The translations under genes were made by a program, and so were the position numbers. DNA of 64,000 nucleotides from positions 1-64,000 of the forward strand of contig JAGXQV010000104.1 in the NCBI GenBank assembly GCA_018336195.1, in the 5' to 3' direction. Below, in pieces: positions 4,191-5,925 of this stretch. Origin of the DNA: Sulfuricella sp. Its GTDB lineage: Bacteria > Pseudomonadota > Gammaproteobacteria > Burkholderiales > Sulfuricellaceae. The stretch's first letter is position 1, and each line of letters opens with the position of its first letter. A model generated the notes under the pieces. That model was given only the letters and a program-made list of their open reading frames with translations. It ran no database searches and was not told the origin of the DNA.

Positions 4191-4323
4191 GCACACCATG
4201 CCAACATGCAACCTGACCAGCACCGTTCCACGCTTTACCGGGGGCAATTTAGCCGCATTATTTTATCGTGAGGCAAGATGGCGCGACAGGCGCCTTTCAC
4301 CCTCGCTCCTTTCCAGCGCCTCC

Positions 4324-4866
4324 ATGAAAAAACCTGCACAGATCATCGAGATTTTCCTGCAACCCGGGGACTTCTACTTTGGCGACCGCAATACCCATAT
4401 CCGCACTTTGCTGGGATCGTGCATTTCCATTACCTTGTGGCACCCGCAATTGCTGATCGGCGGAATGTGCCATTTCATGGTTCCCAGCCGCGGCAAACAA
4501 CCCGACACAGTCCCCTTGGACGGGCATTATGCCGACGAGGCGCTGGAACTGTTCCGCCGCGAAATTCGGGCGGCCGGAACCCTTTCCGCCGAATATGAAG
4601 TCAAGCTGTTCGGCGGGAGCAATATGTTCACCGACAGCGGAAGACACTTCTGCCCAAACAAGAATTGCTTGGACCCGTTCACCAATTCATGCCGGGATGT
4701 GTCGTGCCGCAACCAGCGCAGCGCTCGGCTATTGGTAGAGCGCCACGGTTTCACCGTCAAAGCGGAGCGGCTGGGAGGCACCAAGCCGCATAATGTGTTA
4801 TTCGACCTGTGGAGCGGAAATGTCTGGATCAAGCGTCCCCCCAAGATATTGAAATGCCAAGAGTAG
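4324..4866 (+). CDS. cheD: Chemoreceptor glutamine deamidase CheD
   Basis: Deamidates glutamine residues of chemoreceptors to make methylatable glutamates. The protein has the catalytic cysteine motif LLGSCISITLW and the histidine motif GGMCHFMVP, plus KLFGGSNMF, all usual for CheD. The start was placed at ATG 4324 (MKKPAQIIEIF), giving 180 residues. The frame is open back to an ATG at 4198, but the extra 42 residues are arginine-rich, unlike the family, and would leave only 7 bases to cheR. Neither start has a strong Shine-Dalgarno sequence, so this choice is by homology. No cheB follows; rpoH comes next after a CIRCE site. Confidence 0.9.
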   Translation: MKKPAQIIEIFLQPGDFYFGDRNTHIRTLLGSCISITLWHPQLLIGGMCHFMVPSRGKQPDTVPLDGHYADEALELFRREIRAAGTLSAEYEVKLFGGSNMFTDSGRHFCPNKNCLDPFTNSCRDVSCRNQRSARLLVERHGFTVKAERLGGTKPHNVLFDLWSGNVWIKRPPKILKCQE

Positions 4867-4966
4867 GGCTACTCACGATCGTTGGTTTTTTCCAATATGA
4901 AGGCGTGAAAAGCCCTGAGCTTAGCGGCACCAAGTAGATACGGCACACACTGAACTATTTCAGCCG

Positions 4967-4993
4967 CTAGCACTCATAAGCCGAGAGTGCTAA
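4967..4993 (+). promoter_or_regulatory. CIRCE element (HrcA operator) upstream of rpoH
   Basis: An inverted repeat CTAGCACTC, 9 spacer bases, GAGTGCTAA. The right half is identical to the CIRCE consensus TTAGCACTC-N9-GAGTGCTAA and the left half differs only in its first base; the spacer is exactly the canonical 9 bases. It ends 24 bases before the rpoH ATG, which is the usual place for an HrcA operator over a promoter or leader. This predicts that the repressor HrcA controls the heat-shock sigma factor. Confidence 0.92.
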
Positions 4994-5017
4994 AATTTGC
5001 CTTGGGAGGTGAGAAAT

Positions 5018-5878
<861 letters not shown>

Positions 5879-5889
5879 GGCTTTGCTAC

Positions 5890-5925
5890 AAAGACAAAGG
5901 CCGGCATATGCCGGCCTTTGTCTTT
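5890..5925. terminator. Bidirectional terminator between rpoH and the cco assembly genes
   Basis: A perfect 16-bp stem (AAAGACAAAGGCCGGC with its exact complement) and a 4-base ATAT loop. T-rich arms lie on both sides, so it can end rpoH on the + strand and the converging ccoG-H-I-S unit on the - strand. Confidence 0.9.

Follow-up and report, generated by a model that had tools for sequence, protein, structure and literature searches.

A CIRCE operator within the putative promoter of the heat-shock sigma factor gene rpoH in Sulfuricella sp. and other Gammaproteobacteria

Accounts of heat-shock control usually follow either E. coli, with sigma-32 alone, or Bacillus, with HrcA alone. In a 64,000-nucleotide stretch of DNA from Sulfuricella sp. 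(contig JAGXQV010000104.1), referred to below as the window, an inverted repeat resembling CIRCE, the operator of the HrcA repressor, lies in front of a sigma-32 gene. This locus raises the question of whether the repeat is a working operator, and whether one heat-shock system is placed under the other by it.

The operator of the window and the hrcA gene of the genome

The site and its neighbours in the window are as follows.

4198..4866, + strand: cheD, the upstream neighbour (NF010020, 1.3e-55; start of the longest frame, the true start perhaps further in)
4967..4993, + strand: CIRCE operator (left arm 4967-4975, spacer 4976-4984, right arm 4985-4993)
5004..5009, + strand: Shine-Dalgarno sequence GGGAGG of rpoH, by direct reading
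5018..5878, + strand: rpoH, RNA polymerase heat-shock sigma factor (sigma-32; TIGR02392, 413.7 bits against a cut-off of 323.1)

By direct reading, the operator consists of CTAGCACTC ATAAGCCGA GAGTGCTAA, with a spacer of 9 bases. Its sole departure from the CIRCE consensus TTAGCACTC-N9-GAGTGCTAA is the first base, C for T. The canonical spacer and the one mismatch in 18 arm positions that an earlier note on this DNA had described were both confirmed at 4967-4993, with the letters CTAGCACTC-N9-GAGTGCTAA. The operator ends 24 bases before the start codon ATG of rpoH (5018-5020), and its position is conserved in relatives. The same note had placed it directly before rpoH, and this assignment holds, since the downstream gene exceeds the RpoH equivalog cut-off of TIGR02392.

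No second CIRCE match with at most 3 mismatches was found in the window, where the expectation from shuffled sequence is 0.00. At the same threshold, the 4.77-Mb assembly (211 contigs, 99.5% complete, 7% contaminated) contained 3 CIRCE sites against 1 site for the reversed control pattern. The chance expectation, by arithmetic, is about 0.004 sites with at most 1 mismatch per 4.77 Mb.

Among the checks proposed in the earlier note were a genome search for hrcA, whose absence was to count against control by HrcA, and a search for further CIRCE sites. A single intact hrcA was found on contig C211, with a reading frame of 362 codons and a match to the HrcA profile at C211:23439-24098 (TIGR00331, 328.7 bits). 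Sequence search identified 1stz as its homologue among solved structures. Besides the window, CIRCE sites were found on contig C110, 51 bases upstream of groES, and on contig C80, where the site is also at a rpoH gene. No CIRCE with at most 3 mismatches was found in the whole assembly beyond those at groES and rpoH, and by the same search hrcA itself has none. Neither grpE nor dnaK was found next to hrcA in the 3.7-kb stretch examined; the gene that follows hrcA (L001 2252-3607) encodes an AAA-type ATPase.

The C80 sequence (C80:1-3260, L099; 3.3 kb) has its own ftsY-ftsE-ftsX-rpoH set with a perfect CIRCE, and its RpoH is only about 65% identical to the RpoH proteins of the family. Contig C56 holds ftsYEX without rpoH, and its FtsX is 63% identical to that of the same-genus genome G001, against 42% for the FtsX of C80. 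A second chromosomal copy of rpoH on C80 was rejected because of the separate ftsY-ftsE-ftsX there and the native ftsYEX on C56. C80 is probably from a contaminating betaproteobacterium.

A chance palindrome, or a site that belongs to a contaminating organism in the assembly, would also place such a repeat in the window, and the other CIRCE-bearing rpoH of the same assembly, on the 3.3-kb contig C80, lends some colour to contamination. However, the closest protein to the window RpoH in the tree was the RpoH of G001 (sister at 100/100 support, 80% identity), and the nearest relative of HrcA was the HrcA of G001 (85% identity), a genome which also has rpoH with CIRCE. Because both proteins are closest to G001, sequence comparison indicates that the window rpoH and hrcA come from one organism. 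With an expected number by chance close to zero and a site conserved throughout the class, as described below, chance or contamination is extremely unlikely as the origin of the window site.

Distribution of the site and promoter elements across Gammaproteobacteria

We analyzed the 500 bases upstream of rpoH in about one genome per family of Gammaproteobacteria, betaproteobacteria included. CIRCE was called present at 3 mismatches or fewer, and its presence was compared with that of hrcA. CIRCE was found before rpoH in 87 of the 94 genomes with hrcA but in only 5 of the 26 without it (Fisher p = 3.9e-13), so that the presence of the operator depends on that of hrcA. Nearly all of the 87 sites had 0–2 mismatches, while the best matches to the reversed consensus usually had 7–9. 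This indicates that the predicted link between HrcA and rpoH is class-wide across Gammaproteobacteria. CIRCE precedes rpoH in, among other named genera, Pandoraea, Herbaspirillum, Trinickia, Janthinobacterium, Nitrosomonas, Pseudacidovorax, Sulfuritalea, Polynucleobacter, Dyella, Halothiobacillus, Methylocaldum, and Pseudoalteromonas. No CIRCE was found at rpoH in the sampled Vibrio, Shewanella, Haemophilus, or enterobacteria. The earlier note had regarded such a link as predicted for some betaproteobacteria. The operator was found in betaproteobacteria, but the restriction to some of them did not hold, given its occurrence in 87 of the 94 hrcA-bearing genomes class-wide.

The site is missing at rpoH in seven hrcA-bearing genomes of the class sample. 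The five genomes with CIRCE at rpoH but no detected hrcA are L241 (G145), G112, G139, G053, and G098, of which G145 and G112 also hold a second close CIRCE match; in these five, hrcA was possibly lost recently or falls into a gap of the assembly. In the other classes of the phylum, 1 of 40 genomes had the site, at 3 mismatches, when one rpoH copy was taken per genome; 28 of these 40 have hrcA.

Almost all of 41 relatives from the same family and order have exactly two CIRCE sites. In essentially all same-order relatives with hrcA and rpoH, a single CIRCE lies at rpoH and, typically, another lies elsewhere, and all of the 18 non-rpoH sites that were checked in the relatives sit at groES. The complete genome G039, in which rpoH is present, has neither hrcA nor any CIRCE.

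Alignment of 106 sites on CIRCE, with positions counted from its first base, revealed conserved arms, a variable spacer, and mostly variable flanks. Outside the arms, base conservation was found in three places only. The first is GGAACTT at −16 to −10, the consensus of the sigma-E −35 element. The second is T-(A/C)-A at 9–11, which together with the final TC of the left arm gives TCTAA or TCTCA, a sigma-E type −10 element, at a constant spacing of 16 bases from GGAACTT. The third is AAT at 27–29 (66, 75, and 89% at the rpoH sites), which joins the right arm to form TGCTAAAAT, a putative extended −10 element for the main sigma factor. The AAT has no mirror image on the left side of CIRCE in this alignment, and it is therefore not simply a longer operator.

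These elements distinguish the rpoH sites from the groES sites. GAAC starts at exactly −15 in 53 of the 92 class sites against none of the 18 groES sites, and TGCTARNAT was found in 62 of the 92 rpoH sites against 1 of the 18 groES sites. With a sigma-E type matrix, 62% of the class sites, training sites included, scored above the 99th percentile of random positions; scores were mostly high as well for the near relatives, which were excluded from the training. The groES sites instead have CTTGAAA-N13-CCCTATTA, a sigma-32 type promoter. The phase of the promoter elements relative to CIRCE is fixed at the rpoH sites but not at groES.

The earlier note had claimed that HrcA controls rpoH, a claim supported by the conservation of the operator wherever hrcA is kept. 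We estimate a probability of about 0.8 that the site of the window functions as an operator for HrcA and forms part of the rpoH promoter; the binding of HrcA, the use of the promoters, and the direction of regulation are predictions from sequence.

Promoter elements and relocation of rpoH in this genome

The candidate promoter elements of the window copy are as follows.

4950..4957, + strand: sigma-E type −35 element CTGAACTA (class consensus (G/T)GGAACTT)
4974..4978, + strand: sigma-E −10 position, TCATA here against TCTAA/TCTCA in the class
4988..4996, + strand: putative extended −10 element TGCTAAAAT, right CIRCE arm plus AAT

When the near relatives were kept out of the matrix training, 0.18% of random positions scored higher than CTGAACTA. 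The −10 element is degraded, TCATA departing from the class consensus; in the sister genome G001, the −35 element is CTGAACTT and the −10 element is TCTCA. The element TGCTAAAAT is intact and fits the extended −10 pattern of the main sigma factor, TG-N-TAnnnT. Because the sigma-E −10 is degraded, the chief rpoH promoter in this genome is probably the extended −10 promoter of the main sigma factor. A generic sigma-70 scan, which is blind to sigma-E and extended −10 types, found no promoter near the site on this strand.

In G001, as in E. coli, rpoH follows ftsX. In this genome, rpoH was relocated with its promoter and operator behind cheD (window 4860–5020), and the native ftsX (C56:52672-53568) has lost the adjacent rpoH and has an altered C-terminal end. 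The bases CACACTGAACT immediately 5′ of the site are common to the window and G001, and in G001 the TGA of TGAACTT doubles as the stop codon of ftsX. This suggests that the break of the rearrangement lies within the last ftsX codons. Read-through from upstream may differ after the relocation of rpoH behind cheD.

The relocation bears on another explanation, in which the operator is real but a nearly silent relic, rpoH being transcribed mainly by other promoters or by read-through after its move. Both the displacement of rpoH from ftsX and the degraded sigma-E −10 would fit it. However, the arms in the window have only 1 mismatch against 2 in G001, although the G001 RpoH is only 80% identical and the spacer has changed, and the extended −10 element TGCTAAAAT has stayed intact. 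We consider a relic unlikely.

A perfect 18-base inverted repeat, AAAGACAAAGGCCGGCAT/ATGCCGGCCTTTGTCTTT, was found right after rpoH at window 5890–5925. It is probably a terminator for both strands.

Proposed regulation and comparison with known systems

In other bacteria, GroE maintains the activity of HrcA, and heat or unfolded proteins relieve HrcA (PMC6032397). If the same applies here, an HrcA dimer maintained by GroE would occupy CIRCE at normal temperature and cover both the ancestral sigma-E −10 (left arm plus spacer) and the extended −10 (right arm plus AAT). Both rpoH promoters would then be blocked and rpoH kept low. Heat or unfolded protein would inactivate HrcA and release rpoH together with groESL, the only other predicted HrcA target in this genome, and the sigma-32 so released would drive groESL and the remaining heat-shock genes. 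Since groESL and rpoH are the sole predicted HrcA targets and groES has a sigma-32 type promoter, this arrangement would form a coherent feed-forward loop, in which HrcA represses rpoH and groESL while sigma-32 activates groESL. The loop would be closed by the feedback of GroE on HrcA. A joint rise of the GroEL and RpoH transcripts from 30 to 36 degrees in a Caballeronia symbiont (PMC12617022) gives weak outside support to the HrcA-rpoH circuit.

In other bacteria, some heat-shock genes have CIRCE elements in their leaders. The repeat might accordingly form a stem-loop in the leader RNA of rpoH and act there, for stability or as a thermosensor, rather than as a DNA operator, and that general leader location is what speaks for it. 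However, the presence of the operator tracks hrcA, and the transcript from either predicted promoter would begin past the left arm, so that the stem could not form. An RNA element is therefore very unlikely, and a DNA operator for HrcA remains our preferred reading.

The HrcA/CIRCE regulon of Bacillus and many other bacteria, which controls groESL and hrcA-grpE-dnaKJ, shares with this genome the operator TTAGCACTC-N9-GAGTGCTAA, an intact HrcA, and groESL as a target. It differs in that the target here is the gene of the heat-shock sigma factor and hrcA has no site. A survey by Permina and Gelfand reportedly covers beta-, gamma-, and epsilonproteobacteria. In Geobacter sulfurreducens, CIRCE was predicted at position −51 upstream of rpoH (PMC545781, Table 8), which resembles our case in having a predicted HrcA operator immediately before rpoH. 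It differs in that hrcA-grpE-dnaKJ is targeted too, and an overlap with promoter elements is not given in the consulted part of that source (PMC545781). The window site is a new instance of this already predicted arrangement. A direct HrcA-rpoH link in betaproteobacteria was not found in the literature searchable here; nor was the composite promoter or the spread of the link across the class, an absence which is not proof of novelty.

The rpoH gene of E. coli has TGAACTT-N16-TCTGA, the same sigma-E elements at the same spacing, without CIRCE. This sequence matches the known sigma-E promoter P3 of rpoH. No HrcA was found in the E. coli control genomes. P3 thus shares its sigma-E geometry with the class, but CIRCE and HrcA are missing in E. 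coli. The sequences compared make it very probable that, in most species with both heat-shock systems, one is under the control of the other, with E. coli as an exception.

On balance we favour, if only slightly, an ancestor of the class with a composite rpoH promoter, in which a single CIRCE lay over the sigma-E −10 and the extended −10 and the release of HrcA was a prerequisite for either, E. coli being derived. If so, neither envelope stress nor basal transcription would raise sigma-32 before HrcA is released, and E. coli-like lineages would have lost HrcA and CIRCE while retaining the sigma-E promoter with its spacing unchanged. The E. coli circuit would then be a reduced version of one in which HrcA acts on exactly those bases that sigma-E and the main sigma factor use. 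If this is true in most gamma- and betaproteobacterial families, three stress inputs converge on one 50-base site.

Variation of the operator itself was observed in some genomes. In L340 (Xanthomonas pisi) and L362 (Lysobacteraceae), the two arms of the rpoH operator have changed in step, GCAGTC-N9-GACTGC replacing GCACTC-N9-GAGTGC, and a similar but less symmetric change was found in L347 (Luteimonas). The pattern in these three suggests a shift in the specificity of HrcA.
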